DNA of 64,000 nt from a bacterium (GTDB lineage: Bacteria; JAJVIF01): positions 1,426,001 to 1,490,000 of the forward strand of contig JAJVIF010000001.1 of the NCBI GenBank assembly GCA_022072165.1, given 5' to 3'. Position numbers and translations under genes: made by a program. Position 1 is the first letter of the stretch, and each line of letters begins with the position of its first letter. Positions 12,011-44,865 of this stretch are shown in pieces. Under the pieces are notes generated by a model, which made no database searches, had not been told where the DNA came from, and saw nothing but the letters and a program-made list of their open reading frames with translations.

Positions 12011-14932
12011 TTAGTAGTCGATCACGCGCCGCTGGATCCGGGCCAGCGAACCGGCTCCGGAGGCGTTGTAGAAGGTGCAGGCGATGCGGTCGATGGTGCC
12101 GTCATACGCGATGCGGGGATGGAGGGTGCTGTCGGTGGTGTTGTCGATGGCGAATTCGACGTCGTTGAAGGTCAGGTCGGCATTCAGGAAGCGGCCGTAG
12201 ACGTCAGCGTTAGCGGAGCCAGTGCGATAGTCGCGCCAGACCACGAGGAAACGACCCAGGTTGTCACGAATCGCGTACGGGGAAGTTTGTCCTACATCCG
12301 CAGGCTGGCTCACGGCGACCGGGGTGCTCCAGGTGCCAGTGCGACGAGTGACATAAATGTCGTTGGTGGCAGTGGTGAAGGCGTTTTCATCATAGAAGAC
12401 CACGGGGTTGCCCGCCTGATCCGTCAGGATGAAACCGTGCATACTCGCCGCCGTCTGCAGGGAAGTAGAAACCCGTTCCTCAGCGGCAACCGGAGTATTC
12501 GTGTTGGTATCAAAGGCGCGATAGAAGAGCCCATTGTCGGGTCCAGCCGTGGTGTTGGCGTTGGTCCAGACGACATGCAGGATACCGCCACTCCCCATCA
12601 CCATGTGGGGATCATTGAGGTTCCCGATGTGCGACGCGGGATCCAGGCCGGTGCTCACCGACGCGAACGACGCCGCGCCAGCAGCGTTGGTCACGGCATA
12701 GATGTGGAGGTTGTCGTTGGACTGGTCCGACACGCTGCTGGAGGGAGTGGTGTCACGATTCGCGAGAATCCAGGCTTTATTGGTGTCGGTGGGGTCGGCC
12801 ACGATCATGGGGTCGCGCCACTCGGCGACCGCGCTGACCGTCTGCACCGGATTGATAGTGACGCTGGCACCGGCTCCCGGGACGATCCTCATGAAGGCGA
12901 GATTGCCACCAGCACCGGAGGTCCCGGTCGAGATGTACGCCGCCACGACATTGCCGTTCGCCAGGACCGCCAGGGACCCGCCGTTCGACGAACTAATCCC
13001 CGTCATGTCCACGGGCGCGCCCCAGGTGACGCCGCCATCATTGGAACGAATGATGGTGTTCGTCAGGGAGCCGGGTCGGTAGGTGACATAGATGTTGCCA
13101 TTGCCATCGGAGACCATGGGATTCATGAAGCGATCCCACTGATAACTAAAGGTCCCCTGCAGCTGTGAGGGCGCGACCGGATTGTTGGGGCCGATCGTCG
13201 GGGTGATCGGACCGGCAGCCGAGGTGACATTGACCGTGAAGGGACCGTACTCCGTAGAGAGGCGTCCGCCAGCCGGCAGATACGCATCGGTGATGCGGAG
13301 CTTGTACTGCTGGGAGGGATTCTCGACCGTGTAGGTATGGGTGAAATCGGGGGCGTTGTCCCCGGAGGTTGCCGTGATGCTGGCATCCCAGGTCCCGTTG
13401 TTGTCCCAGTCAACTTCGAAGAGCGACAAGCCATCGGGATCCAGGGTCGCCAGCCCAGGAACCGCCGTGTCGAGGTCGATGTTGAAGGGCGTGTCAACCA
13501 CAACGCTGGGCGGGAAGGTGAAAGTGGTGCTCGCTGGCGGGCCGAGGTTCGGTGGACCAGAGTTGAAGTCTTCGACGAGGACCCGAACGACCTGGTAGCG
13601 GGTGCTGGAGAGGGTCGCGCCCGGCACCGGGACCGTGCTCGCCTCACTGAGGATGAAGGGCTTGATGCCAGTCGGCGACCCATCATCCAGGTCCTGGCTG
13701 TCCTGCACCCGGATGAGGCCGGCCACCCATTCGCCGCCAGGAGCGACGTCGTACAGGTCAGTGTTGTTCACCGAGACCCCTGACTCCCAGAGCACAGGAT
13801 TCCCGGCCACCGGAGCGACCGCCGACCCATTCAGCGGCCCGCTGGCATTCAGGAGCGGGAAGTCGGCATCGATGGCGATGATGGAGGAATCTTCCCGGAC
13901 TTCGGTCAGGTCCGCACCATTGGGGAACGTGGCGGCCACTGTCGCATCGTGATCCCAGTCGAGGATCTGGAAGGCGACGGACGCGATGTCACTGGACTGG
14001 TCATCGCGCAGGGTGCCACTGACACTGGCAGAGATACGCTGCAGGTCACCGCAGGCCTCGGGGAGGATGTAGCGCAGGTCGGTGGGGTTTCCGGTGGGGA
14101 GTCGCTTGGTTCGTCCGGCACCAGTGCTGCGCGGATCCTGATACTTGGCCGTGACTACGAGAGTGAAGTTGAAGGATCCGGATCCCGGAGGGGTCACTTC
14201 GTACATCACCTCAGCAGCCCCCCCCTGCGGGAAGACATCGAAGCCGCTCGGGCTCAGCAGGGCGTTCCCCTGCCAGCCGTTGTTGGTAGCGTCGTAGTTC
14301 CCCTGGGCGGTCCGGGGCTGCGTGGTGTCGATACCGGCCGCGAAGAGGCGATAGGGAAAGACATTCGCACCGCTGGTGGGAATCCCGAAGGTGGTTTTGT
14401 CGAAGAGGACGCCCGGGTCGCGATAGCCATCGGCGTTCATCAGGAAGTTCGCGTTGGTCTTGACGTTGCCATTGAAGAAGGTGTCAGCGCCATCGATGAC
14501 CGCGATCCCGTTGACATCGAAAACGTGCAGATCGACCCGCTTGGTCGCCGAGGGAGGGCCGTTCAGGTCCGGCGGTGCAGCGAAGGGGTGGGTCAGGCGG
14601 ACTGTGAGTTCCAGGTTGCCATCACCGTTGCGCTGAATGCCGGTGAGTCGAAGATTCTTCGGGCCAAGGAAGGGACGAATGCTGAGGTGAAAGTTGTCAC
14701 CCTGCCCGGCGGCTTCCCTGGGAAAGAGGGGGGTCGCTTCGTAGTTGAGGCTCGCAGGGTCGATGGTGACTTCCATCGCGCCCAGTGATCCGGTTGCCAT
14801 GTCGCCCAGCCCCACGACTGCGCCAAAGGGATCTGGCTGGCTGATGGACTGGGAAGCAGGAGCAAGAGGGCCTGAGGTCGAGCAGGCAGCAAGCGTGAAT
14901 ACTGCCGGCAGTGCGACAAACAGTCTGCGCAT
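12011..14932 (-). CDS. Very large secreted lipoprotein, HPF/NADGY family member 1
   Basis: A 973-residue lipoprotein: signal MRRLFVALPAVFTLAAC with lipobox LAAC (Cys17), then a Ser/Pro linker. The N-terminal domain, about residues 40-230, carries QGDNFHLSIRPFLGP, LTHPFA, KRVDLHVFDV, NADGYRD and GFDVFPQGG. A middle region has ILDWDHDATV near residue 310 and a PKD/cadherin-like DPDGLSLFEVDWDNNGTW. The C-terminal third holds an Asp-box (SNDGGVTW) and repeated WRDPMIVADP, AVSQPA and VWRDYR strands, as in sialidase-like beta-propellers. It has a GGAGG ribosome binding site and a -10 TAGGAT at 14975-14980. Closest in-window relative is the tandem neighbour at 15092. The function is unknown; surface binding is a guess. 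Confidence 0.85.
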   Translation of the reverse strand: MRRLFVALPAVFTLAACSTSGPLAPASQSISQPDPFGAVVGLGDMATGSLGAMEVTIDPASLNYEATPLFPREAAGQGDNFHLSIRPFLGPKNLRLTGIQRNGDGNLELTVRLTHPFAAPPDLNGPPSATKRVDLHVFDVNGIAVIDGADTFFNGNVKTNANFLMNADGYRDPGVLFDKTTFGIPTSGANVFPYRLFAAGIDTTQPRTAQGNYDATNNGWQGNALLSPSGFDVFPQGGAAEVMYEVTPPGSGSFNFTLVVTAKYQDPRSTGAGRTKRLPTGNPTDLRYILPEACGDLQRISASVSGTLRDDQSSDIASVAFQILDWDHDATVAATFPNGADLTEVREDSSIIAIDADFPLLNASGPLNGSAVAPVAGNPVLWESGVSVNNTDLYDVAPGGEWVAGLIRVQDSQDLDDGSPTGIKPFILSEASTVPVPGATLSSTRYQVVRVLVEDFNSGPPNLGPPASTTFTFPPSVVVDTPFNIDLDTAVPGLATLDPDGLSLFEVDWDNNGTWDASITATSGDNAPDFTHTYTVENPSQQYKLRITDAYLPAGGRLSTEYGPFTVNVTSAAGPITPTIGPNNPVAPSQLQGTFSYQWDRFMNPMVSDGNGNIYVTYRPGSLTNTIIRSNDGGVTWGAPVDMTGISSSNGGSLAVLANGNVVAAYISTGTSGAGGNLAFMRIVPGAGASVTINPVQTVSAVAEWRDPMIVADPTDTNKAWILANRDTTPSSSVSDQSNDNLHIYAVTNAAGAASFASVSTGLDPASHIGNLNDPHMVMGSGGILHVVWTNANTTAGPDNGLFYRAFDTNTNTPVAAEERVSTSLQTAASMHGFILTDQAGNPVVFYDENAFTTATNDIYVTRRTGTWSTPVAVSQPADVGQTSPYAIRDNLGRFLVVWRDYRTGSANADVYGRFLNADLTFNDVEFAIDNTTDSTLHPRIAYDGTIDRIACTFYNASGAGSLARIQRRVIDY

Positions 14933-15038
14933 GAGTACGGAGCCTCCAAAGAGCGGTGATGGGCGTACGAAGTCATCCTACCAATCACCCGACAGCGCAT
15001 GTAACAACGGCGTCACATCAGTTCTCCGCAAGATAAAC

Positions 15039-15064
15039 ACAGCCCCCGGCGCACCAGGGGCTGT
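15039..15064 (-). terminator. Rho-independent terminator of the 15092 lipoprotein gene
   Basis: ACAGCCCC (15039-15046) and GGGGCTGT (15057-15064) form the stem. On the minus strand the hairpin is followed by the T-rich run GTTTATCTT. Confidence 0.7.
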
Positions 15065-15091
15065 CGCGTTCCCGGACGCTTCCGCGCCGGA

Positions 15092-17776
15092 TCAGGGCGT
15101 GAGCTGGAACCAGCGCGACCGGATCTCGTAGTTGCTGTCCGGGGCAGACAGAGGGCCACCAAAGCCGGACCGTTCATAGCAGACCACGTTGCGCTGCCGC
15201 ACGACATCGATGATCAGATGCGGATACCGGACATCCGCCGCCGGGATGTCGGTATGGGCGCGGGTCGGGGCGACCAGTTCTGTGGTGAGGTCAGCCGACC
15301 GGGCAGCGAGGTAGATCTCATCAGCCGAGACACCGCGTCGCATGTACGCCACGATCACCGCCCCACTCCCGGCGGCATCGACAATGACATCCGGCATCTG
15401 GCAGTCCGCCCCGGAGCTATCCACCAGCACGGGGGCGCTGAAGGCGGTGCCAGCGGCATCCCCACGAGCGATGTAGATGCGTCCCTGGTTGGAGTCATTC
15501 CCCAGCCAGCGTTCCCAGACCACCAGGGCACGTCCGGAGGAGTCGACAAAAATGTTGGACTCACCGACATTGTCGGTACCCGAGTTAGAGATGTTGACTT
15601 CAGCCCCCACCACCGGACTGGTGGCAGGTGACGTGACTTTCACATACCGGACATCGTTCGTCCCAATGGGACCAGCGATGTAGCTGACATGGAGATTTCC
15701 CGTGAGGTCCGCGACCATCCCCTGATTCGTCTCGCCGTTGAGCCCGCCGCCTCCGTTGGCGTCCGGGGTGGCGATTTGGGTCCAGGTGGGAGTCGCTGCC
15801 TGGGCATTGGCGGTCCGGAAGAGGACCAGGCGGTTGTGATTCGGGCTCGAGGAGTAGGTGTCCCGGGCCAGGAGATATGCCCGATTGCCGGTGAGGTCGC
15901 TTAAGTCACCTGAGAGGATTGTGCCGGAGTAGGCCCCCGGCGACCCGACGATACTCCCGATCGCCCCATTCCAGGTCGTCAGACTGGGAGCGCTGTCGGT
16001 CCCCCGCAGCATCCCCAATGTTTCGGTGGGCGAAGAGCCCGAGGAGCCGACAATCATCGGCTGGCTGACGGAGAGTGTGGGCAGGACACTCATGCTCAGG
16101 GAGTCGCTGACTCCCGTGGTCAGCGTGCCCAGGAAGGGCGTCGGAATCTGCACGGGGGAACCCCAGGAATCGCCCCCATCGGTGGAACGGGAAACGAACC
16201 AGCTGTTGGGGCTCGCGTTCCAGCGGTAGAAGTAGTAGAGGTCGCCCTGGGGATCTGCCGCCTGGATCCGCTTGTACTCGTAGGTGTACGTCCGGATGTC
16301 GCGGAAAGCCTGCGCGGGGTCCGCGTTGATCGGCACTTCCTGCGACTGAAACGTGATGCCTGCCGGTGGTGCCACGACATCGGTAACTGTCACGGTAAAG
16401 GCCTGGTAGCGGACGGTCGGCAGGAGGGTGGTGCCCGGATTCGGGAGCGGCGCAGTGGAGGCCTCGCTGAGGACCTGCTGCAGGACCCCGGTCGGGCTGG
16501 TGTCGTCGCTGTCCTGGCTGTCGGTGATGCGAACCAGCCCCTTCACTTCGACCGGAGCCCCGGTCACCGGGAACGAGTCGGTATTGGTGAGGTCACCGTT
16601 GATGACCGTGATGGGGTCGCCAGGGGTAATGGTCAGCCCCAGGGGGAAGGGCCCGCTGGCCTGGAGGTCGGGGAGGTCGGCGACCGCGTTGATGGGCGCG
16701 GAGTTTTCGGGAATTTGGCTCAAGTCGCTGTTGTTGGGCCAGGAAGCCGGATCAATGACTGTCGCGCCGCCATCCCAGTCGAGGACCTCGCCCGTCAGGG
16801 GGACTGTCGCGGCCGGATCGTTATCCGGCAGCGTTCCGGTCACTGTCACAGTCAGGCGCTCCAGGTCGCCCGCGCCCTGCGGGAGGAGGTAGCGGAGGGC
16901 GGCAGGATTGCCCGGATCCGGGAGGCGGTTCGCCCGCTTTTGCGTGGCGGTCGTGCCGTTGCGCGGGTCCTGGTACTTCGCGACCACAATGACTCCCAGA
17001 TTCACCAGATTCCCACTCCCCAGATCGAGGATGAGGTCCCGCTCGACATTGGCCCCCTGGGGGAAGACCCCATAGCCGGTCGGAGCCGACAGCGCCGTCC
17101 CCTGCCAGCCATCAGCGGTCGGGTTGTAGTTGCCGCCGGGGTTGCCGCTGTCGTAGCTGCCGACCATGACATAGGGGAAGGTATTGGCGGAGGAGACGCC
17201 GAAGCCTGCCGGATCAAAGAGAGGACCAGTGGTCCGGTAGCCATCAGCGTTGGTGACAAATCCATGATTGAGTGTCACGGCTCCATCAAAAAAGCTGTCA
17301 GTCCCTTCGGCGACCAGCACCAGATGCGTCTCGAAGACATGGAGATCGAGTCGTTTGGTCGCCGTAGCCGGACGGGTAGTATCGGTCGGGACCGCAAAGG
17401 GATGCGTGACCGTCACGGAGATCTTCAGTTCGTTGGGCGAGATGAGTTCGATGCCGGACACCCGCAGATCCCGGGGCCCAAAGAAGGGCCGGATCGACAG
17501 GGCATAGGTGTCTCCTTGGCCGAAAGTGGTCGCACTGGCGGTGTGGACCGGCAGGAGGATCGCCTGCAGGGTTTCGGGGTCCAGCGACAGGGTCCAGGCT
17601 CCCAGCGCGGCCGTCAAGTTGCCCGTGGCATCGGCGATAGGCGGCGGCAGTGTGATCTTTTCTCCCGCGACCTGGGCGGGAGTGGTCGGGGAGGCGGCAT
17701 CGCCACAGGAGGTAAGCAGCAGGGCTGTCGTGGCTGCAGCGAGCAGCGGGAGCGTGCGAAGGATGGATCGAGGCAT
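15092..17776 (-). CDS. Very large secreted lipoprotein, HPF/NADGY family member 2
   Basis: An 894-residue lipoprotein: signal MPRSILRTLPLLAAATTALL with lipobox LLTSC (Cys24). Its N-terminal domain closely parallels the neighbour at 12011: QGDTYALSIRPFFGP, VTHPFAVP, KRLDLHVFE, NADGYRTTGPLFD, PTGYGVFPQG and KYQDPRNG. A VLDWDGGATV motif follows, then a C-terminal propeller-like region with Asp-box STDGGDSW and strands such as NRAYLLARDT and GRALVVWERW. I chose the ATG at 17776, which has AAGGA upstream; the frame runs 32 codons further without homology. The adjacent relative suggests tandem duplication followed by strong divergence. Confidence 0.85.
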   Translation of the reverse strand: MPRSILRTLPLLAAATTALLLTSCGDAASPTTPAQVAGEKITLPPPIADATGNLTAALGAWTLSLDPETLQAILLPVHTASATTFGQGDTYALSIRPFFGPRDLRVSGIELISPNELKISVTVTHPFAVPTDTTRPATATKRLDLHVFETHLVLVAEGTDSFFDGAVTLNHGFVTNADGYRTTGPLFDPAGFGVSSANTFPYVMVGSYDSGNPGGNYNPTADGWQGTALSAPTGYGVFPQGANVERDLILDLGSGNLVNLGVIVVAKYQDPRNGTTATQKRANRLPDPGNPAALRYLLPQGAGDLERLTVTVTGTLPDNDPAATVPLTGEVLDWDGGATVIDPASWPNNSDLSQIPENSAPINAVADLPDLQASGPFPLGLTITPGDPITVINGDLTNTDSFPVTGAPVEVKGLVRITDSQDSDDTSPTGVLQQVLSEASTAPLPNPGTTLLPTVRYQAFTVTVTDVVAPPAGITFQSQEVPINADPAQAFRDIRTYTYEYKRIQAADPQGDLYYFYRWNASPNSWFVSRSTDGGDSWGSPVQIPTPFLGTLTTGVSDSLSMSVLPTLSVSQPMIVGSSGSSPTETLGMLRGTDSAPSLTTWNGAIGSIVGSPGAYSGTILSGDLSDLTGNRAYLLARDTYSSSPNHNRLVLFRTANAQAATPTWTQIATPDANGGGGLNGETNQGMVADLTGNLHVSYIAGPIGTNDVRYVKVTSPATSPVVGAEVNISNSGTDNVGESNIFVDSSGRALVVWERWLGNDSNQGRIYIARGDAAGTAFSAPVLVDSSGADCQMPDVIVDAAGSGAVIVAYMRRGVSADEIYLAARSADLTTELVAPTRAHTDIPAADVRYPHLIIDVVRQRNVVCYERSGFGGPLSAPDSNYEIRSRWFQLTP

Positions 17777-17867
17777 CGGCGGAGTCCTTCCCTTGTGGGC
17801 AGCAGATGGGCGACACCGGGGGTGTGCGGAGCAGGGTGGGTCGGGACAGAACCCCCGGATGGCGAAA

Positions 17868-17880
17868 AGCATCCTATGCT
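17868..17880. promoter_or_regulatory. Overlapping divergent -10 elements in an inverted repeat
   Basis: The inverted repeat AGCAT-CCT-ATGCT contains TATGCT (17875-17880) reading right and TAGGAT (17876-17871) reading left. The rightward transcript would have a leader of about 28 nt with GGGAGGG before the ATG at 17915; the leftward leader to 17776 is about 90 nt. Confidence 0.55.
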
Positions 17881-17914
17881 ATGGGAGACTCTGCAACTCC
17901 CGGGAGGGCTCGTC

Positions 17915-18559
17915 ATGTCGACTTTACTGACCCGCATCGCGTGTGTCGCGCTGCTGCTCCTGACCAGCGGGAGCCTGACGCTCGCACAGGCCGCTGAGAG
18001 CGGACTGCGATTTACGGTCGAGGTGAGCTCGAACATGGCTCCGGCCGCGACACGGGTCACGACGTCCATGCAGGATGGGCTGGTCCGGACCGACACCACT
18101 ACGGGATCGGAGACGACAGTCGCAATCATTCGCGACAACAAGACCTACCTGCTGGAGCCTGCCCTCGAACTGGCGCAGGTGACGCCTGTCAGGAAGCCGG
18201 GAGCCGGAGTCCCGGCAGCGCAACAAAAGTACTGGGGGCTGGTGGATCCGTTGCAGGTCGCGCCACCGCAGCTGCCAGCGCTCTTTCGGACGCTGGGAGC
18301 CCGGTCGCTCGGGAAAGACAAGCTCGAGGGCGTGGAAGTCGAGGCCTGGGTTCTCAGCATCCCCGCCGACGTGAATTTTCCCCTCGACAATCTCCGGCTC
18401 TATGTCAATACGGAAAATGGGATGCCCTTGCGACTCGACTACCAGCGCGACAAAGACGAGCAGGTGCAGGTGAAGTTCCTGAGCATCGAGACCGATGCCA
18501 CCTTCGCGCCGGGGATTTTCGAGATCCCCGCGGCGTATCGCCTGGTGGAATACGAGTGA
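17915..18559 (+). CDS. Exported LolA-like / outer-membrane lipoprotein-sorting-like protein
   Basis: This 214-residue protein starts with a cleavable signal (LLTRIACVALLLLTSGSLTLAQA, cut near AQA-AE). The mature part is a run of beta strands: LRFTVEVSS, TSMQDGLVRTDTTTG, TVAIIRDNKTYLLEP, and later LRLYVNTENGMPLRLDYQR and VQVKFLSIETDATFAPGIFEIP. That pattern of a substrate-strand half barrel ending in FEIPAAY is typical of LolA/DUF4412-like periplasmic proteins. It may bind lipids or lipoproteins, which fits a genome rich in lipoproteins, but no ligand can be assigned. It has GGGAGGG upstream and is divergent from the 15092 lipoprotein, possibly co-regulated through the shared promoter element. 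Confidence 0.7.
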   Translation: MSTLLTRIACVALLLLTSGSLTLAQAAESGLRFTVEVSSNMAPAATRVTTSMQDGLVRTDTTTGSETTVAIIRDNKTYLLEPALELAQVTPVRKPGAGVPAAQQKYWGLVDPLQVAPPQLPALFRTLGARSLGKDKLEGVEVEAWVLSIPADVNFPLDNLRLYVNTENGMPLRLDYQRDKDEQVQVKFLSIETDATFAPGIFEIPAAYRLVEYE

Positions 18560-18604
18560 TAGTCCGTGCGATTGATCGGCGCAGGGACATCTGAACTCGA
18601 CGAT

Positions 18605-19807: not shown

Positions 19808-19809
19808 GG

Positions 19810-20229: not shown

Positions 20230-20266
20230 GCTGTCATGCCCCCCACAGGTGTGATGTCTGCTGTCG

Positions 20267-20294
20267 TTCGACTGGTACTGGCGCTTTCTATAAT
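20267..20294 (+). promoter_or_regulatory. Sigma-70-type promoter of the 20361 ferredoxin gene
   Basis: TTCGAC (20267-20272), a 16-bp spacer and TATAAT (20289-20294) form a clear promoter. The leader to the ATG at 20361 is about 60 nt, unlike the leaderless genes nearby. Confidence 0.65.
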
Positions 20295-20360
20295 CCCGGG
20301 AACGTACCGCTCCGCCGGATTGCCAGCGGCATTGTAGCCGCGAGTCAGGATGCCCCCATC

Positions 20361-21893: not shown

Positions 21894-21905
21894 GGGGGGA
21901 TGATA
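21891..21905 (-). promoter_or_regulatory. Leaderless promoter of upp
   Basis: TATCAT on the minus strand (21905-21900) is followed by six C residues and then the ATG. This is a plain example of the window-wide pattern. Confidence 0.6.
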
Positions 21906-22107: not shown

Positions 22108-22125
22108 TACAATCCCACCTTGATG
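22108..22125 (+). promoter_or_regulatory. Leaderless promoter upstream of 22123 gene
   Basis: TACAAT (22108-22113) ends 9 nt before the ATG at 22123. A TTG immediately before the ATG is a possible alternative start. Confidence 0.55.
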
Positions 22126-22908
22126 AAGGAAACTCTCGGCTACCGGGTGCAGTACGGCATCGCTCCTTCCCGGTCGACCAGTCTGGGGCAGTGGATGCTG
22201 GCGGTCACGGGCGTGGTCGCGCTGCTGGCGTGGTATGGCACTACGGCAGGCTGGTTCGGACCCCGTCCGCCAGCCGACCTCCCGGCTGCCACCGACCTGC
22301 CCCTCCCCACGCCTGCAACTCCTCCCGCCAGTTCCGGGAACCCCCAGTCGCTGCCCCTGCCTGATCCCGGCGCGGAGACCGAAATCCTGAGTTACTTCCC
22401 GTTGGGAGCAGGTCATCGCTGGGATTTCGCCCAGGAAGTCCAGGTTCCCGGAGCCCCACCAACGGCTGACCGGGGGATGAGCTTCGAGGTGACCGCGGTC
22501 GACTGGAACCACGATCGGGCAACCTGGGAATGTCGGCTGGGCCAGGAGACGCTCTACTACTACATTACCGGCGACGACCTGATTGCTTCACGCGCGCCGG
22601 CATCCGCCGGGCTCGTGCAACTGCGGTCGCCCCTGACCCAGGGCGCGACCTGGGAGGACCCGCCGGGGAAACTCCGCTGGCGGGTCGAGCGGACCAGCGT
22701 GCCGGTAATGTTGCCATTGGGGACGTTCAGCTGCCTTGAGTTGCAGAAGGAGCCGCTGACAGGAGATGGCGGTACGGAGACGCTGTTCTATGCGCCGGGA
22801 GTCGGACTCGTGAAGCAGATCACGCTGGAGCCCTCGGGGGCGCGTCGGACCTACACGCTGGTGAGCTATGCCATCGGCGGGACTCAGGTCCCGCAACCCA
22901 CCGACTAA
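22123..22908 (+). CDS. Hypothetical single-pass membrane protein
   Basis: A 261-residue protein with a short cytoplasmic N-terminus, one membrane segment at about residues 25-45 (WMLAVTGVVALLAWYG), a Pro/Ala/Thr-rich linker and an exported beta-rich domain. The domain begins ILSYFPLGAGHRWDFAQEV and contains DWNHDRATWECRLGQETLYYYITGD and DPPGKLRWRVERTSVPVMLPLGTFSCLELQ. The pattern of a 'YFPLGxGxxW' opening and a late GVGLVKQIT strand resembles secreted bacterial proteins of unknown function. It stands alone between a leaderless promoter and a terminator. Confidence 0.65.
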   Translation: MKETLGYRVQYGIAPSRSTSLGQWMLAVTGVVALLAWYGTTAGWFGPRPPADLPAATDLPLPTPATPPASSGNPQSLPLPDPGAETEILSYFPLGAGHRWDFAQEVQVPGAPPTADRGMSFEVTAVDWNHDRATWECRLGQETLYYYITGDDLIASRAPASAGLVQLRSPLTQGATWEDPPGKLRWRVERTSVPVMLPLGTFSCLELQKEPLTGDGGTETLFYAPGVGLVKQITLEPSGARRTYTLVSYAIGGTQVPQPTD

Positions 22909-23409: not shown

Positions 23410-25236
23410 ATGCAGCGGCGCAGCACCCTCCGACTTCCCCTCTCCATGCTCTGTTTGGGAGCCCTCTGGAGTGCCCTTACCGGTTGCTCGGCTCCGGCCA
23501 GTGCGCCGGCGACTGATCCGGCACTGCTTCCCGGCACTGACACGCCAGTCGCGACGGCGACTCGCGTGGAGGCCACGCTCCCGGAAGGGGCGGCCCTCAT
23601 GATGGCCGCGGAGGTGACAGTCCACCTTGATGACCTCTCTTATGAGATGGTCCCCCTGCGACGCAACACACTGACCTTCGGCGAAGTCTTCGCCGGGGTA
23701 AATCTCACGGGGTACCTGGCCGCGAGTCCCTGCTCCACCTGTCTGCGACTGGAAACCATCAGCCTCGATCCGGCGAAGGATTTGTTGTCGCTGGCGTTCG
23801 CCATCCGGCATCCCTTCCCGGCTTATCCGTCGTTCCCGCGCAAGGACCTCGATGCCTTTGATGTGAAGGGGGTTGTGCTGCTGCCGGAGCCGACCATCGG
23901 GGCGTATCAGTTCAACAGCGAAGTCGCCCCTGGCGTGAAGGCCCGTGGCGACTTCTACAGCCTCCGCAACGCCGATGGCTACACCTCCGCTGGCCGGAGT
24001 CTCTGGACCGACTCGACGTTCATTAACCCGGCGTATGCCACCGAACAGTCGACCATTAACCCGTTCAAGTTCTACCAGTCCGATGGGCTGGAGCGCCGGT
24101 TCCGCCAGGGCCAGGGCTTCGAGTCCCGGACCTATACCTTCGATGTCTCCCGGACGTTTAACACGGTCCGGTTCCTCCTGGCGATCATCGGCAACTACGG
24201 CACCCCGATCCGGAGCCGGGACGATCGCCCGGATGCCCGGTACTTCATCCCGGCGTTCAATCAGAAGGAGGCCTACTTCATCGAGGGGGCCCGACTCTCC
24301 AGCGCGCCGCAGCTGACCTGGAAAGATGCCACCAGCGAGTCGGTGATCGAAGTAAAGGTCGCGGACCATCAGCGCAATCTGCCGGCGAAGGGGGCGGAGC
24401 TCGACTGGGATGACCCGGAAAACACGATTCCTTTCTCCAGCAATGTGGCGGAAGTCAGCATCGAAGCCCCGGTACTCTCCGACTCCCCCTTCTCCCTAAT
24501 ACCCTCCACCGGCGGCGCGGGCACTTTCGCGGATCCCTACCGTTACAACGTCAACATCTCCAACACGAAAGCCGCCTCCTTCGGGACCTATCCCATGCTC
24601 ATCAAGACCCGGGATCAGGTGAACAGCCTTGCCGGCTGGGCTGTTGGAAACCTGCATATCCCCTACGACGACGAATTCGAGCGGGAGAACCCCATCACGC
24701 AGACTGGCTGGATCACCGGCGCTCCGGTCCCCGGCACCGGGGCAGGCTGGTCGCTCTTCGCTTCTGCGGGACCGAACGGGAAGTACTGGGACGACAACAA
24801 CAATCAGCCGTACGAAAACAATGTCCTGCTGACCCTCGACACTCCTCCGATGGACCTCACTTTCTCATCGGCGCTCCCGGTGCTGGAGCTCGTGCATCAG
24901 TACAGCCTGGAGCCGACCCTCGATGGCGCGGCCGTGTTCCTGAGTACCGATGGTGGCTTCACCTTTGACTACCGGGCACCACTGACAGTCCTGTCCGGTC
25001 GTGGCTACGACGCCGAGATGCTGCCGAAGATTGGCCCCTTCGATGTCCTGGCGTACAAGCGCGCCTTTACAGGCGACTCCGAGGGAAGCACCACGAGCCA
25101 GTTTGATCTGTCGGCGGCGGCGGGCAAGAAGCAGGTGGTCTGTCGCTTCGTCTTTTCCACCAACTCCTCCGGGAATGGTTCCACCCCTCCGTTCTATCAG
25201 GGCTGGAGCATCTATCGGGTGAAGCTCATCCCTTAG
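23410..25236 (+). CDS. Large secreted lipoprotein, HPF/NADGY family member 3
   Basis: A 608-residue lipoprotein: signal ending LTGC (Cys26), then a Pro/Ala/Thr-rich linker. The N-terminal domain has VTVHLDDLSYEMVPL, a Cys pair in SPCSTCLRLE, IRHPFPAYPSFPRKDLDAFDV, and LRNADGYTSAGRSLW. Mid-protein it has RYFIPAFNQKEAYFIEG and the ELDWDDPENT motif, both shared with other family members. The C-terminus has one Asp-box-like STDGGFTFDYR and ends with strands reminiscent of jelly-roll or discoidin folds. The SPCSTC pair resembles FPCADC in the 42496 relative. I chose the ATG at 23410, about 9 nt after a GAGG. Confidence 0.82.
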   Translation: MQRRSTLRLPLSMLCLGALWSALTGCSAPASAPATDPALLPGTDTPVATATRVEATLPEGAALMMAAEVTVHLDDLSYEMVPLRRNTLTFGEVFAGVNLTGYLAASPCSTCLRLETISLDPAKDLLSLAFAIRHPFPAYPSFPRKDLDAFDVKGVVLLPEPTIGAYQFNSEVAPGVKARGDFYSLRNADGYTSAGRSLWTDSTFINPAYATEQSTINPFKFYQSDGLERRFRQGQGFESRTYTFDVSRTFNTVRFLLAIIGNYGTPIRSRDDRPDARYFIPAFNQKEAYFIEGARLSSAPQLTWKDATSESVIEVKVADHQRNLPAKGAELDWDDPENTIPFSSNVAEVSIEAPVLSDSPFSLIPSTGGAGTFADPYRYNVNISNTKAASFGTYPMLIKTRDQVNSLAGWAVGNLHIPYDDEFERENPITQTGWITGAPVPGTGAGWSLFASAGPNGKYWDDNNNQPYENNVLLTLDTPPMDLTFSSALPVLELVHQYSLEPTLDGAAVFLSTDGGFTFDYRAPLTVLSGRGYDAEMLPKIGPFDVLAYKRAFTGDSEGSTTSQFDLSAAAGKKQVVCRFVFSTNSSGNGSTPPFYQGWSIYRVKLIP

Positions 25237-26416: not shown

Positions 26417-27910
26417 TCAGGCGGCTGGTGACGGCACCAGTGTTGGTCGCTGGCCTGTCCAGAGTGGGCGGGCCAGGACGAAATCGGTCAGGTCACTCCC
26501 TTCCACCACGGCTGCCAGGAGGCTCTCGAGCATCGCGCCGGAGAGGCCGACCCGACTGCGGGAGCGGGTCAGTGGCGGCTCGCCCAGCGCGAGTCCGGGA
26601 GCCAGCCAGCAGACCGGGTAGCGATCCGGAATCCGTCGCCAGAGCGGCATTGGCAGCGTCGGCGCAGGGCTGATCCAGCAGCAGAACTCACCTTCCACTT
26701 GGGGGACATCGAGGGGTGCCTGTTTGTTCCAGCCGCGCCACTGCTGTCCCCGTGAGAGGAGGCGGGCGACCAAGGGGAGGGGCTCTTCGGGTGGACTGGC
26801 AGCGACTTCGTGCCAGGTCGGTGCCAGGAGCCAGCAGCTCTGGGCGTGTCCGCTGGCCAGGAGGGTGGCGGCCTGACTGAACGCCGCCACCGGGTAACTC
26901 CAGGGGGTGGCGGGAATGTGTTGTCGTCGCCAGTTGGGCAGGTTGTCGACTATCACAAACCCCTGGCATGGCGGCAGCGACAGTCGATGCGCCATCTGCC
27001 GGAAGCTCTGATCGAGCCAGCGGCAAGCCGCCTCTGCGACTTTGTCCGGGCACGACGGCGTGAGGGAGTTCGTGGTCCGGATGCTCCAGGGATGGCGTGG
27101 TGACAGGAGGTCCGCGACCTGCAGCCAGGCAGCGAAGAGATGCACCGGCCAGACTTCGGGACCCCAGGTGGCCGGGTCGCCCAACCGACGCAACAACGGC
27201 TCTGGCGGAGCGCCGGACTTCAATGCGGTCGCCAGCGCACTCAGCATTCGGACTGGTGAATGGTCAGCATCTGGGGCGTCATCGAGGAACGCGTTGATCC
27301 CGCCTGCTGGCACTGATACAAGACCGGCATTGCGGGAGTCGGTCAGTCGCAACGCCCGGTGCGCGTGACGCAGCAGGTCCCGCTGACGACGGCTCAAGGC
27401 CGTGATGTCGCCTGGCCGGTAGGTTTGCCAGGCATCCCGGATGCCCTGGCGTAGAGTGGATGGCACTGGCTGCGGTCCCAGAGGTGCGAGGGCGGTGCAG
27501 GTCCAGCCCCCTTCGGCCGACTCCCACTCCTGAAGAAAGGCCACAAGATCGGCGGGATGCGGGAGGATGCTCGGCACCCAGCGGCGCAACAAAGTGGTGT
27601 AGCTGGGGCTCAGGGCGATGCAGCGCAGGAGGGTGCGGGCGGCATAGCCATCGCCGGCATACTGTCGCAGGAAGCTCGCGAGTCGCAGGGGAAACTCCAG
27701 TTGCGAGGGGTCATCGTTGACGGCCGAAGGAAGCACGTCATGGATCAGTTCGTGGAGGGTGATCTCCGCAAGATCATCGGCAGTGGTCCCGGAACGCCGG
27801 TCAAACTGATGGGCGGTCGATTGCCAGGCGATCGCTTCGCACAGGACCTGTGCATGTGAGGGATCGAGTCCCGTGACAGTCACGGGGGAACCCGGGTCGT
27901 GGGGATGCAT
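26417..27910 (-). CDS. Hypothetical protein with an HEXXH motif
   Basis: A soluble protein of about 497 residues, no signal peptide. Near the N-terminus, LAEITLHELIHDVLP gives HELIH at about residues 53-57, the zinc-binding HEXXH of many metallopeptidases. No third ligand in a known spacing can be recognised, so this may be chance. The rest is helix-rich and Trp/Pro/Leu-rich. The ATG at 27910 has a GGAGGA ribosome binding site; the frame is open into clpS upstream. It is 50 nt after clpS, so the two may be co-transcribed. I do not recognise the family. Confidence 0.6.
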   Translation of the reverse strand: MHPHDPGSPVTVTGLDPSHAQVLCEAIAWQSTAHQFDRRSGTTADDLAEITLHELIHDVLPSAVNDDPSQLEFPLRLASFLRQYAGDGYAARTLLRCIALSPSYTTLLRRWVPSILPHPADLVAFLQEWESAEGGWTCTALAPLGPQPVPSTLRQGIRDAWQTYRPGDITALSRRQRDLLRHAHRALRLTDSRNAGLVSVPAGGINAFLDDAPDADHSPVRMLSALATALKSGAPPEPLLRRLGDPATWGPEVWPVHLFAAWLQVADLLSPRHPWSIRTTNSLTPSCPDKVAEAACRWLDQSFRQMAHRLSLPPCQGFVIVDNLPNWRRQHIPATPWSYPVAAFSQAATLLASGHAQSCWLLAPTWHEVAASPPEEPLPLVARLLSRGQQWRGWNKQAPLDVPQVEGEFCCWISPAPTLPMPLWRRIPDRYPVCWLAPGLALGEPPLTRSRSRVGLSGAMLESLLAAVVEGSDLTDFVLARPLWTGQRPTLVPSPAA

Positions 27911-27960
27911 GACTCCTCCCGGCCTGAACGATCCGGAAGCGCAAGACTGACGGCAGTCGC

Positions 27961-28359
27961 TCAGGCGAGTTGCCAGCGCAGTGCGGCTCGTTCGAAGATC
28001 GCACCCACCCGGCAACAGTCCTGGTGAGTGCCGATGTACGCGACCGCTTCCCCCTCTTCGTGGACCCGGCGGGTGATGGCCTCGGCCTTCGCCCTCGGAC
28101 ACCGGGTCGCCAGTTCGACAATCCGAATCACGTCATCGAAAAAGTGGACGTCGTCGTCGAATAAGATGACTCGCATAACGACAGGTTCATCGAGTCGGGT
28201 GGCAATCTCCTCGATCTGACGAATCAATGGCGCCAGTTCGGGATCAGTAGCCGGAGCTCGTCGGGTGGGAACTGTCAGACTAGCCAGGCAAGGATCAGGA
28301 GTCACTGGTTGCTCCGCGGATGTAGCGTTTTCCCCTGGCATCGTGACGCCAGCGAGCAA
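27961..28359 (-). CDS. clpS: ClpS-like ATP-dependent Clp protease adaptor
   Basis: The 132-residue protein has an unstructured N-terminal half and a ClpS core: MRVILFDDDVHFFDDVIRIV, ATRCPRAKAEAITRRVHEEGEAVAYIGTHQDCCRVGAIFERAALRWQLA. ClpS delivers N-degron substrates to ClpAP. The N-terminal NDD-like acid motif is here FDDD, and the helix TRRVHEEGEAVAYIG carries the usual substrate-pocket residues. The extension of about 60 residues is longer than in E. coli ClpS. The start is TTG at 28359, with AGGAA 6 nt upstream; the ATG at 28341 is the alternative. No clpA is in the window. Confidence 0.82.
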   Translation of the reverse strand: MLAGVTMPGENATSAEQPVTPDPCLASLTVPTRRAPATDPELAPLIRQIEEIATRLDEPVVMRVILFDDDVHFFDDVIRIVELATRCPRAKAEAITRRVHEEGEAVAYIGTHQDCCRVGAIFERAALRWQLA

Positions 28360-37248: not shown

Positions 37249-37320
37249 GAGGGCAGGATACTCGAGGTGCCTTCCGCTCGAGGCAGTCGAAAACCGTGCG
37301 TGGCGTATCCTCTCCCCATG
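37246..37320. promoter_or_regulatory. Divergent leaderless promoters, CtlX-like gene and pyrD
   Basis: Both genes have TATCCT ending 6 nt before their ATG: minus strand 37260-37255 for the ATG at 37248, plus strand 37306-37311 for the ATG at 37318. Confidence 0.65.
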
Positions 37321-38271: not shown

Positions 38272-38299
38272 TCATCGCAAGGGCGGCCCGTCATTGGGG

Positions 38300-38365
38300 T
38301 AAGATGCGGTGTTACGCGACGCCCCGACCGGGGCCGTTTTCATGCAAGGGGGACTCCACGAGCCC
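38300..38365 (+). promoter_or_regulatory. ahcY promoter and structured leader
   Basis: TAAGAT (38300-38305) is a probable -10. GCCCC and GGGGC (38321-38334) form a 5-bp hairpin with loop GACC, followed by CGTTTTC, and AAGGGGGA lies about 12 nt before the ATG. This resembles a small attenuator. It does not show the conserved SAH riboswitch sequence. Confidence 0.45.
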
Positions 38366-39634: not shown

Positions 39635-39691
39635 TTCGTCTCACAGCACCAGGGTCCGGAGCGGTAACAGCCGGGTCCGGTTATAAAAGTA

Positions 39692-39717
39692 AACGGCGGG
39701 CGAGATCGCCCGCCGTT
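39692..39717. terminator. Perfect palindromic bidirectional terminator
   Basis: AACGGCGGGCGA and TCGCCCGCCGTT form a 12-bp palindrome. On the minus strand it is followed by TTACTTTTATAAC, terminating the 39757 lipoprotein; on the plus strand it follows ahcY. Confidence 0.75.
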
Positions 39718-39756
39718 GCTGTTTGGTACTGACATGTCGTGCATGGAGAGCGCTGG

Positions 39757-42405
39757 TTACTGCCAGACAATCCCTTCCAGCTCATACGCCGACCCGGTTC
39801 CCCACTGTGCACTCCGCCAGAAGGAGACCATCCGGCCATCCTGCGCCTGTACCGCGCCACCGTAGTTGCGCGCCCAGGGTTGTGTCGCCTGCGGCTCTTC
39901 GATGGCGTAGCCCGCGATCATGGCGGGGGTGTCGGTGTGTCGGAAGCGCTTCAGGCGCAGTTGCGTCGCACCAGCCGCCGTCGAGCCGAAAACAATGCCC
40001 CGACCGCTGGGCGAAATTTCCAGCGTCGGGCGGGGGAATCCGCCGCTAACGGTCATCACAATGGTCGGCGATGGGCTCCAGCTGGTGCCGTCGTATTGGG
40101 CCATCGCGAGCTGCATGGAGTCGTTCCGACGGAAGATCATCCAGATGAGGCCATCGGGGTCCCGGGCGAGACGGCATTCACCGGCCCGGGCGGTAGCTGC
40201 GTAGAGATTTCCTTCGGGCCCCCAGACCCCACTGTTTTGCCGGATCCAGCCGATCTGGGTCCAGGTCGGGACATCCGCCGCGACATAGGGCGTCTCCAGG
40301 TCTTCCCATGTGACAAGCCAGTCGCCATTGGAGAGACTGACAATATCGAGAGATTCGATCCAGGCGGTATAGCCACCACATCCGGCACCGATGGCTGTGA
40401 TGGTGTCCGCCCCGGCGAACTGGTCCGGACCACTCCATGACGTGCCGTTGTACTCGTAGAGATACATCTTCGACTGCGGAGCCGGCTGCCCCTGGCAGAC
40501 GAGGGAGCCCTGTGGACGCGCGACGGCGGCAAAGCCGATCCGGCCATCGACATTCAACGCCATCCGGGCAGCGGAGTACCAGTTGCCCTGGGGAGGTGCA
40601 GAAGTCACGGTCACCGGAGCCGACCAGGTACCACCGTTCTTGCGAATGTGGGTCCACTGATTGCCGGTGCCGTAGTACATGACGTGCATATCGCTGTTCT
40701 GATCAAAAAGGCTCGCGGGCATGTAGTCGCTGCCGCCGGTGGCAGGCGCGATCGTTTCCGGTGCGCTCCAGCTGGGAACCGGGCAGCCACCGTAGCTCAC
40801 CTGATCGATGCGACGACTCGGTGACTGGAAAGAGATGTACGTCAGGTAGATCGTCCCATCGGGTCCGACGACCAGCGATTCATCCCCTTCCCAGTCGAAG
40901 CGTTCGTCCCGGCCATCGTTGGTGAGCCGGACTGCCGGCTGCCAGGCGGCCGGGGTCGCGCTGACTGTAATGGTGGCGGTGGCGATGTCGCTGTTGGCGA
41001 AAGCATCGCTGACCCGCAGTCCAATGGTGAAAGTGCCTGCGGCGAGACACGGACGCCAGGCCCGGACTCCTGTGGCATCGACATCGAAGTTGCTGCCGTC
41101 GTAATCAAGGTCCCATTCGTAGGTCGCGATGGGATGGTCGCCGGGGGTGCTGGCGGAGGCATCCGCGATGGCGTCCAAACCAAGCCGGATCGCCGCGGGG
41201 TCGCAGTTGAGGATGTTTGCCTCGGCGTTCGGAGGCAGCGCTGTGTCAGGGACGCTGACCGGAAACACCTGCCAGGTGGAGTAATCGGTGATACTGACCG
41301 GCGTGGTCAGATCATCTTTGAGCCCGACCCCCTGCGCCGCATCGGTCACCTGCACGACTCCCCAATAATCGCCACCAAGCCCGCCGGCAAGATTCGTTAC
41401 CAGCGCCGTGGCGGTGAGGGGGGTCGGATCGGTCCCGCTCCCCGTGAGGCTCAGGGTCAGAGGCGAGGTGGTGATGCCCGGGACGCTCAGGGTCGCGCCG
41501 GTGACATCGCTCCCCAGCGACTGTCCATGCTTCCAGTCCCAGATGTTGACCTGATAGCTGGCGGTCGAACTGGTGTTCCCGGCCTGCAAGTCGTTGCTGA
41601 GTTCTTCAACCGTCACTTTCCATGGCGCGTTGCCCGCGAACTTCGGCAGTTCGTACGCGGGAGTCTGCCGGGATGCCCGGACCGCCGACTGGCCGTAGTC
41701 CGCCGTGAGGAGGAGGCGAGCCTGCAGGGTGGTCGCCGTACCGAGTTCAAGGCGCAGGGTATCGACCGAATTTTGGCCCGGGAAGTAAACGTTGTATCCG
41801 CTGGGATTCTGGAAGTTGAACGTTCCGGCGGTGGCATCCTCCCGGAGAATCACATAGGGCTGCAGGGTAGCGTTGGCGAAGGCCGGCGGGACCTGTGAGG
41901 TCAGCGACCACATCTGCCCGTAGCCATCGGCGTTCGTAAGGAGCCCCGGTGCGAGGGTCTGCCCCGCGCTGGTCAGCCCAATGGGAGCGTCGGTGACGAC
42001 ATAGCACTTGAGATTGAAGATCGCGAGGTCGGGGCGGGCGGCGGCCGTGAAGGGATGCGCGGAGGCGAGATCGATCTCGACCTGCGTCGGGCCTGTTTTG
42101 CGGAGCGCTTTCACGGAAAAGTTCTGTCCGAACAGCTTCGTGAACCCCGGTGTGAGACCCAGTTCACTGTAGGTGTCCCCGATCGCCTGTCCTTCATGGA
42201 CTGGTGTCACTTCGGCGGTCATCGAGGCCAGGTCCACCGTCAAATCCAGCGTCGCGACGGTCGCCGGTACGCCCCCGGAGCGTGGCAGAGGTCGCATCGA
42301 AGCATCCGCATCGGGGCTGGACGGCTCCCCGGACTGACAGCTGAGTGATCCGAGGCAACTCAGCAGAACCAGTCCCAAGCTGGAGGAAATGCGTCGGCTG
42401 TTCAT
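39757..42405 (-). CDS. Very large secreted lipoprotein, HPF/NADGY family member 4
   Basis: An 882-residue lipoprotein with lipobox LGSLSC (Cys23). The N-terminal domain has LDLTVDLASMTAEVTPV, LASAHPFTAAARPDLAIFN, NADGYGQMW and PSGYNVYFPGQNSVD. It carries the family's IWDWKHGQ motif near residue 290. A PKD-like domain follows (YEWDLDYDGSNFDVDATG, FTIGLRVSDAFANSDIATATITV). The C-terminal half has propeller-like repeats SWSAPETIAPATGG, GGTWSAPVTVTSAPP and RDPDGLIWMIFRRNDSM. The start has GAGGGAAA 5 nt upstream. It lies 90 nt downstream of the family member at 42496 and may share its transcript. Confidence 0.83.
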   Translation of the reverse strand: MNSRRISSSLGLVLLSCLGSLSCQSGEPSSPDADASMRPLPRSGGVPATVATLDLTVDLASMTAEVTPVHEGQAIGDTYSELGLTPGFTKLFGQNFSVKALRKTGPTQVEIDLASAHPFTAAARPDLAIFNLKCYVVTDAPIGLTSAGQTLAPGLLTNADGYGQMWSLTSQVPPAFANATLQPYVILREDATAGTFNFQNPSGYNVYFPGQNSVDTLRLELGTATTLQARLLLTADYGQSAVRASRQTPAYELPKFAGNAPWKVTVEELSNDLQAGNTSSTASYQVNIWDWKHGQSLGSDVTGATLSVPGITTSPLTLSLTGSGTDPTPLTATALVTNLAGGLGGDYWGVVQVTDAAQGVGLKDDLTTPVSITDYSTWQVFPVSVPDTALPPNAEANILNCDPAAIRLGLDAIADASASTPGDHPIATYEWDLDYDGSNFDVDATGVRAWRPCLAAGTFTIGLRVSDAFANSDIATATITVSATPAAWQPAVRLTNDGRDERFDWEGDESLVVGPDGTIYLTYISFQSPSRRIDQVSYGGCPVPSWSAPETIAPATGGSDYMPASLFDQNSDMHVMYYGTGNQWTHIRKNGGTWSAPVTVTSAPPQGNWYSAARMALNVDGRIGFAAVARPQGSLVCQGQPAPQSKMYLYEYNGTSWSGPDQFAGADTITAIGAGCGGYTAWIESLDIVSLSNGDWLVTWEDLETPYVAADVPTWTQIGWIRQNSGVWGPEGNLYAATARAGECRLARDPDGLIWMIFRRNDSMQLAMAQYDGTSWSPSPTIVMTVSGGFPRPTLEISPSGRGIVFGSTAAGATQLRLKRFRHTDTPAMIAGYAIEEPQATQPWARNYGGAVQAQDGRMVSFWRSAQWGTGSAYELEGIVWQ

Positions 42406-42495
42406 TGTCGTTTCCCTCTGTCTCTGACTGTGTCTCCGCTCTGCTCCTCACGTCAGGACACCTGCCGTGCTGCAGAGCGCAGCGTTGGAATGCGA

Positions 42496-44865
42496 TCAGG
42501 GCGCCAGGTCCGCTGGCAGGGTCGTGGCGGGTCCGATGGTGACATTGCCGAGCCCATCGACCACGAGGTCGAAGGGGCGATGCCAACTCCGCTCCCACTC
42601 CAGCTGATCACCCTGGCCAGCATAGAACTCGATGGGGGTGTTGAAGTTCTCCCGGTTCAGGCTGGGAGGTCCGTTGAAGGTGGATATCTGGAGGTCCGGG
42701 GTCCCGGAATAGATCGCCACCCGGATGCTGAGGCGGATCGGCCAGGCGGCGGAGTTCCGGCGGTTGGTGAAGTAGTTCACCCCGACGGGGTAGACCGAGT
42801 TGATCTTCAGGCTGGTCCCCGAAATGTTGTTGATGCCATCCATGACCTCCGGCCCGAAGCCGTTGTCATCGCGATGGATGTAGCGCACATCGACCACGCT
42901 GTCACTGGTGGTGCAGGGCTTGCTGGCCGTGCCAGGTCCATTCCCCTGAATCCAGTTGCAGTAGTAGAGGTGGTCGAAGACAGTGGACGCCGGGGCGGTG
43001 GGACTCCAGAGATGGAGGTCCATGTCGGTCAGATCGCCCGAGGTGTAGACCACCGGCTCCCAGGCGAGACTGATCCGGAACGATGGAATGGTCGTGGGGT
43101 CGACGTTCCAGGTGATCGGGGCATAGTTGGCGTTGGAGGTCCCCGAAGGAATGATTCCCACATACTGGTTATTCGCGGTCACGGTAAAGGTGTTGGGACC
43201 ATTGGGCAGCAGGGGCATGGTGACCTGGAACCGGCCGTATTCATCGGTCTGGAGCGGCAGGACCCAGGGGGTGTTCATCGGCGCTCCGCCGGGGCCGACC
43301 TGGGTGATGGTGGTGACGGCCCGGGCGGCCGAAGCGGGGAGTCCCTGGGTGGTGAAGTCGAGGCCGAGGATGGTGCCGGAGAGAGTCGCAAGACCCTTCA
43401 CCTGATCCACGATCGGCGGATTGAGCGTAATGGTGGGCGGACCGGCAGGTCGAATGAAGACCGGGACGATGCGGTACGCCACGAAGTCCGCGTTAATCCT
43501 GTTCAGCGGGTCCTGATTGTGGAGACGTCCGCCAATGAAGTTCCCGCGCAGCTTCCCATCGGCATCCGGCGGACCGGACTGGCACTGAGTGGCCAGGGAG
43601 GCATCGTGATACTCATCCTCCACCCGGACCAGGGCCAGGTAGGGCTCCGGGCGCTCCAGCGCGCTGAGGTCCGGGCCGGGCAGGGTCCCTGCTGCGAAGG
43701 AGTAGATGTAGGGGTCACCTGGCTGACCGGTGCCGCCTGATGGGGTCGCCTGAGTGATGACATTGAAGATCCGTTCGTTCCCCGGCGACGTGGCGAGGCC
43801 CGGCAGGTCGACCGTCACGGTCCGGACATCGCTGGGGCAATTCACCTGATCGAGGCCTGTGCCGGTGATGGCTCCCGCCTGCCAGTCGAGCACCTCCACA
43901 TCCCAGCTCAGGATGGTGCCGGTGGTGGTGTCGCCGAAGATGGTCTGCGGCAGGTTGGTCCGGACGCTGTACGCTTCCTTGATGTTGTACTCGGGGAGGC
44001 GCACGACGCTGTTGATCCGGTCGACTTTTGTGGTCCCCTGCCCCCAGCTCGCTTCGATGATGGTCCGGAAGCGCCGAATGGAAAGTCCGGGCAGGTCGGG
44101 GTCGGTGATGTCGATGAGCCAGCGCTTAATGTCCGGGCCATCGCCGGGCCTAAACGCCCGGCTGGGAATCTCGGCTCCTTCAAACTCGGCGGAGAAGTCG
44201 TCTTCATTGAAGTACCAGCGATAGGGGTTCAATGAGCCGTCATAGCGGACACCGTCGACCACGCCAACATCGTAGTGATGGGTGTAGCCATCGGCGTTGC
44301 GCACGATGTCCCAGACGCCGAGGGCATCGATGCCACTGGGGGTGCCATCCTGGACTTTCGGCGAGTCGGGGTACGCGAATTTCAACAGGGGTGTCGAGAG
44401 GAGGTCGAGCTCCGGGATGAGGATCACCCGGGTGTCGTAGACCACCAGGTCGGCGCGTCCTCCGGGCAGCGTGGAGACCTTGTAGGGATGACGCAGGGCG
44501 ATGTCGACCCAGACATCGAAGTCCGGAGTCAGACCAAAGGCATCGACATAGAGGCAATCGGCGCAGGGGAACTGCCGGAAGAAGTCCGTGATGTCGGCAT
44601 CGTAGGAGTCGCCCTGAGCTGCGAGGGACCGGGGTGCCAGGGGTTCCAGTATGACCCCATCCGCACTGACCGTCAGAGCATACTCCCCGATGATGGCATC
44701 GCCGCTGATGGTGGAGATGGGACCAGTTGCAGATGAGGGGACTTGTGGAACGGCGGCGGGGGTGGCGGGGTCGGTCCCCTTGCGGCCGTTTTGACAGCCA
44801 GGGGAGAGCAGGGCTAGTAGGGCAACACCTGTGAGTAAGCCAGAAGTGAGCGAGCGGCGAAGCAT
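42496..44865 (-). CDS. Very large secreted lipoprotein, HPF/NADGY family member 5
   Basis: A 789-residue lipoprotein with lipobox LSPGC (Cys24). The N-terminal domain has LTVSADGVILEPLAP, QGDSYDADITDFFRQFPCADCLY, ALRHPYKVSTLPGGRADLVVYD and RNADGYTHHYDVGV. It shares RLPEYNIKEAY with the 23410 member and has VEVLDWQAGAI. The middle holds a carboxypeptidase-regulatory-like repeat (GLATLSGTILGLDF ... RFQVTMPLLPNGPNTFTV). The C-terminus is a beta domain with DMDLHLWSPTAPASTVF. HPY replaces HPF here. The -10 TATACT (44975-44970) gives a leader of about 100 nt with GGGAG before the ATG. It is followed in the same direction by member 4. Confidence 0.83.
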   Translation of the reverse strand: MLRRSLTSGLLTGVALLALLSPGCQNGRKGTDPATPAAVPQVPSSATGPISTISGDAIIGEYALTVSADGVILEPLAPRSLAAQGDSYDADITDFFRQFPCADCLYVDAFGLTPDFDVWVDIALRHPYKVSTLPGGRADLVVYDTRVILIPELDLLSTPLLKFAYPDSPKVQDGTPSGIDALGVWDIVRNADGYTHHYDVGVVDGVRYDGSLNPYRWYFNEDDFSAEFEGAEIPSRAFRPGDGPDIKRWLIDITDPDLPGLSIRRFRTIIEASWGQGTTKVDRINSVVRLPEYNIKEAYSVRTNLPQTIFGDTTTGTILSWDVEVLDWQAGAITGTGLDQVNCPSDVRTVTVDLPGLATSPGNERIFNVITQATPSGGTGQPGDPYIYSFAAGTLPGPDLSALERPEPYLALVRVEDEYHDASLATQCQSGPPDADGKLRGNFIGGRLHNQDPLNRINADFVAYRIVPVFIRPAGPPTITLNPPIVDQVKGLATLSGTILGLDFTTQGLPASAARAVTTITQVGPGGAPMNTPWVLPLQTDEYGRFQVTMPLLPNGPNTFTVTANNQYVGIIPSGTSNANYAPITWNVDPTTIPSFRISLAWEPVVYTSGDLTDMDLHLWSPTAPASTVFDHLYYCNWIQGNGPGTASKPCTTSDSVVDVRYIHRDDNGFGPEVMDGINNISGTSLKINSVYPVGVNYFTNRRNSAAWPIRLSIRVAIYSGTPDLQISTFNGPPSLNRENFNTPIEFYAGQGDQLEWERSWHRPFDLVVDGLGNVTIGPATTLPADLAP

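Follow-up and report, generated by a model that had tools for sequence, protein, structure and literature searches.

A family of about 135 putative lipoproteins with a common N-terminal module and varied C-terminal parts in the genome of a barely known bacterial phylum

The DNA analysed here, called the window, is a stretch of 64,000 nucleotides from a bacterial assembly (GCA_022072165.1, contig JAJVIF010000001.1, positions 1,426,001 to 1,490,000). It contains five genes for long proteins with lipoprotein-type N-termini, and an earlier note made from the sequence had described them as paralogues that share an ordered set of N-terminal motifs matching no known family. The locus thus raises the question of whether these proteins form one family, how far this family extends, and what its common part contributes to such differently built proteins.

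The common N-terminal module

Comparison of the five window proteins by blastp revealed significant homology, independently of the motifs, over their first 300-470 residues, with E values of 4e-95 for genes 1 and 2, 3e-19 for genes 3 and 5, 4e-14 for genes 2 and 4, 6e-10 for genes 4 and 5 and 9e-10 for genes 1 and 4; the weakest pairs, genes 1 and 5 and genes 2 and 3, connect via the remaining window proteins. The common region comprises about 400-450 amino acids, including a second, Ig-like half, and each protein starts with a signal peptide ending in cysteine. All five proteins contain HP(F/Y), R-x-D-L, NADGY, and DW, and the alignment has several invariant Pro and Asp positions as well. The motifs claimed earlier are therefore confirmed with one exception, since GD(N/T/S)(F/Y) is found in four of the proteins whereas gene 3 has GEVF at this place. 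Likewise, the claimed lengths of 608-973 residues are correct for the coordinates in Table 1, but the term "giant" was generous, considering a median mature length of about 916 residues among 108 family members.

Table 1. Features of the five family genes in the window (positions count from the first nucleotide of the window)
Feature	Coordinates	Strand	Description
Gene 1	12011..14932	(-)	973-aa lipoprotein ORF; N-module, Ig/GEVED-like stretch, Asp-box-like propeller; family profile 410 bits
Gene 1 N-module	13580..14926	(-)	aa 1-451 by family profile; NADGY at 14423-14437
Gene 1 C-part	12800..13141	(-)	Weak BNR_2 (Asp-box propeller) match, E 0.0094, under curated cut-off
Gene 2	15092..17872	(-)	926-aa ORF; N-module, propeller-like C-terminus homologous to gene 1
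Gene 2 N-module	16391..17752	(-)	By profile; NADGY at 17237-17251
Gene 2 predicted structure	16313-17695	(-)	AlphaFold model m7962c8b74898
Gene 3	23410..25236	(+)	608-aa lipoprotein (from ATG at 23410); N-module, short beta-sandwich-like C-terminus
Gene 3 N-module	23440..24642	(+)	By profile; NADGY at 23968-23982; first half modelled (m448107749a90)
Gene 4	39757..42405	(-)	882-aa lipoprotein; N-module, PKD domain, propeller-like C-terminus
Gene 4 N-module	41257..42381	(-)	By profile; NADGY at 41920-41934
Gene 4 PKD_4 domain	40963..41193	(-)	E 9.5e-6, 26.0 bits vs cut-off 27
Gene 5	42496..44865	(-)	789-aa lipoprotein; N-module, Ig-like and weak DUF2135-like C-terminus
Gene 5 N-module	43459..44835	(-)	By profile; NADGY at 44284-44298

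The real start of gene 2 is probably an internal ATG near 17776. Window neighbours with a Pfam name (RibD, an acetyltransferase, a diacylglycerol kinase, S-adenosylhomocysteine hydrolase, and an MFS transporter) are housekeeping or transport genes and thus give no sign of a fixed partner operon. The 3' part of the frame at 16715-18559 (+) reads as a secreted protein and gives the impression of a LolA-like look.

Across the genome the module is divergent in overall sequence, with a median pairwise identity of 25% and a median of 47% to the nearest relative. All 130 aligned members have the His of HPF, and RxDL, P-Y, RxPxYxxP, and DW contribute further invariant or near-invariant residues. The ordered motif set occurs in 87 of 137 members, compared to a mean of 0.0 in shuffled sequences, and a degenerate DNA pattern for NADGY matches the genome 46 times as opposed to twice for the reversed pattern. 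About 40 extra codons split the profile match of two adjacent members (L109, G000 C3:44141-46258, and L208, C3:46387-48237), in both of them at profile positions 124/126.

None of 72 diverse N-modules matched any Pfam model at E <= 0.01, and the five window modules are likewise uncovered, as are the window ORFs at 10510-11937, 22120-22908, 26417-28102, and 45067-45894. NCBIfam offered no model above cut-off over the module in the 72 members or the five window proteins; the sole match within the 72 modules was a weak one of a single member to collag_bnd_Cnm (E 0.0015). The earlier statement that no known family combines these motifs thus stands with respect to Pfam and NCBIfam, neither of which has a model covering the HPF-NADGY region. 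PDB sequences produced only signal-peptide or chance matches to the family profile, plasmid records contained no relative of gene 3, and in the open-access literature we found no paper naming isolate AUK107 (see below) or describing the family expansion. The protein family is absent from the databases searched, whereas its general kind, expanded and modular envelope proteins, is known, and its scale is rare.

AlphaFold predicted the N-module of gene 2 to be nearly all-beta (pTM 0.76) and to consist of two halves (model residues ~27-240 and ~280-440). Model quality (pLDDT 73 for gene 2, 68 for the first half of gene 3) is limited by the alignments, which consisted of window sequences and related loci (63 sequences for gene 2) and excluded the paralogues of the window's own genome. 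Foldseek returned no hit for the whole module at E <= 1e-3 (best E 1.9e-3, TM 0.17). The best VIA match, with a Z of 5.5 to GH2 sandwich-plus-Ig regions and 8.4 A over 175 residues, lies inside the usual background, and the first half of the gene 3 module alone reached a Z of 6.6 to the 122-residue sandwich of an envelope protein (7dda). For this first half, too, Foldseek and VIA produced no more than middling matches to common sandwich folds. We read the module as a predicted beta-sandwich with an Ig-like domain behind it and claim no new fold. The modelled arrangement weakly resembles the N-terminal sandwich and Ig domain of GH2 enzymes and the Ig-like domains of transglutaminases; this likeness is what any protein made of a beta-sandwich and an Ig domain would give, and sequence similarity is absent.

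Copy number and distribution

Searched with a profile of the five window N-modules alone, the 3.26 Mb genome gave 134 matches; a profile built from 72 members gave at least 143, fragments included, with up to 150 candidates scored. The 137 ORFs with an N-module together encode 127,810 residues, corresponding to 11.8% of the genome. Since some of these ORFs are halves of disrupted genes, we count about 135 family genes. The large expanded system that had been guessed from five copies is therefore real, and the window holds about 4% of it. Fifty-two members are solitary, and the others form 32 clusters of two to seven genes, 27 of which lie on a single strand. In-frame stops interrupt the members at G000 C2:381249-384218 (L095) and C2:420314-421541 (L097), decaying copies that form a small pseudogene tail.

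All four phylum genomes in our collection carry the family, with at least 140, 120, 116, and 103 matches, respectively. Among 381 genomes outside the phylum, for each of which the best four candidates were considered, only five hits of signal-peptide length appeared (E >= 2e-4). A pattern scan of 84,980 species, which used an alignment of members from the other phylum genomes and a collection that does not contain the window's own genome, detected 48 loci, every one within three records: bacterium isolate AUK107 (JAGGVT01), bacterium isolate LacPavin_0920_SED3_MAG_49_9 (JAPKYR01), and Planctomycetota bacterium isolate CSMAG_1386 (DAOVJF01). The public title of the last record (L160, L166, L167, and others) says Planctomycetota. 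This name may be incorrect, as the genome falls into the same class as the others and carries a family that is not seen outside this small phylum elsewhere.

In a quick midpoint-rooted tree, the 81 modules of the phylum genomes G001 and G003 formed one clade. Of the modules of the window's own genome, 106 grouped in a single clade, and the rest fell into small clades that alternate with 17 modules of phylum genome G002. This branching pattern suggests a few ancestral lineages that were followed by separate large expansions.

C-terminal parts and their separate evolution

For the middle half of the members, the part behind the N-module is 420-530 residues long. A Pfam scan of 119 of these C-parts found PKD_4 in 41, PKD in 25, and SBBP and BNR_2 in eight each, with single or few matches to Kelch, FG-GAP (2), PQQ (PQQ_2), He_PIG, GEVED, and DUF5122. 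Further matches were likewise restricted to single or few C-parts and included Reprolysin/M10/M57, GH43, HZS_alpha, Lactamase_B, and a di-haem cytochrome c peroxidase (CCP_MauG, E 1.6e-49). Two C-parts contain HExxHxxGxxH and one contains two CxxCH motifs. The latter are found in the gene at G000 C1:905060-907885 (L068), whose N-module is fused to this haem-type C-part, probably the one with the peroxidase match. Two tandem members (L076, G000 C1:1251564-1259271) have the HExxHxxGxxH motif of metalloproteases in their C-parts. PKD, LVIVD, and DUF5122 domains follow the same N-module in the other phylum genomes.

Within the window, the C-parts of genes 1 and 2 are related to each other and propeller-like; their resemblance to BNR/Asp-box sialidases is limited to weak BNR_2 matches below the cut-off, and the GEVED match of gene 1 also falls below it. 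The C-parts of genes 3 and 5 are unrelated. That of gene 3 resembles the end of the rhombosortase-dependent M36 model at E 0.0012, far under the cut-off.

The two parts of the proteins evolve independently. The nearest relative by N-module is also the nearest by C-part in only 47 of 110 genes, and 75 of 111 pairs with an N similarity above 0.5 have a C similarity below 0.1. Together with the scan of the C-parts, this comparison bears out the earlier view that the C-terminal regions differ (Asp-box propeller, PKD, beta-sandwich). Two recent copies of N-halves illustrate the process. The genes at C1:1694598-1698215 and C1:1698500-1701490 are 98.5% identical over 1516 nt of their N-half DNA and have unrelated C-parts. 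The genes at C1:1016322-1020005 and C1:1022270-1025863 are 99.9% identical over 2280 nt, of which 88 nt precede the ORF start, and this identity extends to about residue 730, after which two different propellers follow. A third neighbouring pair, at C1:1622312 and C1:1627763, is a whole-gene duplicate (99.3%). Since the members of both pairs with shared N-halves are neighbours, the pattern fits either local duplication with subsequent replacement of the C-part or conversion of the N-half.

Candidate roles of the module and related systems

A lipobox Cys is present in 133 of the 137 ORFs, and none of these 133 has Asp at position +2. The four ORFs without a lipobox start inside the module, and most of them are pieces of broken or mis-started genes. 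The genome encodes Omp85, of which the phylum genomes have one to three proteins each, and this indicates a diderm envelope. The proteins would be lipidated at the cysteine and reach the outer membrane; as LolA (PF03548) had no match in any of the four phylum genomes, this location is assigned by analogy. From the lipobox, the diderm envelope, and the missing Asp at +2 we infer that they face outward and constitute a surface system.

We favour, with somewhat better than even confidence, the reading that the N-module serves as a lipid-anchored platform which presents interchangeable C-terminal domains on the outer envelope. Such a protein would consist of signal peptide and lipobox, linker, beta-sandwich, and Ig-like domain, followed by a propeller, a stack of PKD/Ig domains, or, in a few cases, an enzyme. 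Binding or catalysis would then take place in the C-part, with the N-module acting as an anchor or guiding export, and tandem duplication followed by recombination between N- and C-parts would drive diversification. Three features fit this platform: a single anchor type carries many heads, recognizable enzymes are found in the heads alone, and recombination takes place where the two parts meet. What speaks against it are 13 ORFs with fewer than 150 residues after the N-module, some of which (a few are broken) may work without a C-terminal domain, and the strong conservation of the module, which would also fit a ligand-binding or catalytic site. More tentatively, and at less than even confidence, this could be extended to a display system common to the phylum, in which an all-beta lipoprotein N-module with a dedicated export route carries more than 100 propellers, Ig stacks, and enzymes attached by N/C recombination and occupies about one eighth of each known member's genome.

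The conservation leads to the first alternative, namely that the N-module itself is the working part, either an enzyme or a binder of a polysaccharide, a mineral, or an envelope component, and that the C-domains only modulate it. In its favour, about 130 paralogues that otherwise diverge so far share one invariant His and keep Arg, Asp, Asn-Ala-Asp-Gly-Tyr, and Asp-Trp nearly unchanged, 42 of 137 members have a CxxC pair, and about ten genes encode little beyond the module. However, the conserved residues could equally form a structural core, no fold match indicates an active site, and the recognizable enzymes (CCP_MauG, metalloproteases) are part of the C-terminus, which is why we regard a working N-module as unlikely.

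The family could also form a variable surface coat that evades phages, grazers, or other partners by switching or recombining its members, comparable to antigenic variation. The two neighbouring pairs with nearly identical N-halves and replaced C-halves, the 99.3% identical tandem duplicate, and the many tandem clusters would fit such a coat. Most paralogues are nevertheless old and divergent, as seen from the identity to their nearest relatives, and enzymes among the C-parts are ill-suited to a pure coat; we consider this explanation quite improbable.

A single type of N-module on very different cargo might instead be an export tag for a dedicated outer-membrane machine, i.e., a type II-like secretin or an Omp85 protein. 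Four secretins per genome and the Omp85 proteins provide candidates, but no machine is linked to the family genes. A role as type IX secretion cargo was also considered and set aside; the core protein SprA (TIGR04189) had no match over the cut-off in the four genomes, but the control set was likewise devoid of positives. Overall, an export tag appears very doubtful. Finally, the proteins could act like SusD in nutrient capture together with TonB-dependent transporters, to which the very large number of outer-membrane-type lipoproteins in a genome, and their propellers and Ig domains, would correspond. We set this option aside as scarcely credible and largely refuted by the transporter count. 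In the window's genome one TonB plug domain, where SusD would call for SusC partners, faces about 135 lipoproteins, no N-module among the 72 scanned matched Pfam with the SusD models included, and many genes are solitary, in the window amid housekeeping genes.

One undescribed family fills about an eighth of this 3.26 Mb genome, and three other phylum genomes have counts of the same order. For a barely known phylum it would represent the main outlay on the envelope, and it would add a new example of modular protein evolution, with some hundred different heads on a single type of anchor. A family model would name more than 100 proteins per genome that are now nameless and could act as a marker for finding further members of the phylum in metagenomes, and the module is a possible scaffold for protein display on cells.

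Several known systems share parts of this organization. Asp-box/BNR, SBBP, Kelch, and FG-GAP propellers and PKD domains supply many of the C-parts and leave the N-module, which defines the family, uncovered. The SusD-type lipoproteins of Bacteroidota are large, lineage-specific expansions of lipid-anchored envelope proteins as well; SusD, however, is alpha-helical and paired with SusC, whereas the module described here is predicted to be all-beta and its genome has one TonB plug. The closest likeness in organization is to the unrelated PE/PPE proteins of mycobacteria, which take up almost 10% of the coding capacity in M. tuberculosis and combine conserved N-domains of about 110 and 180 aa with variable C-parts, among which C-terminal enzymes are described as exceptional (PMC3034920). 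Their sequence variation is mediated by the homologous conserved 5' regions (PMC3034920). Both families thus have a conserved N-part, a variable C-part, a share of roughly a tenth of the genome, and recombination in common, while the family reported here differs in phylum, envelope, and export, and its N-module is a lipobox-bearing, predicted beta-sandwich that matches neither the PE nor the PPE model of Pfam.
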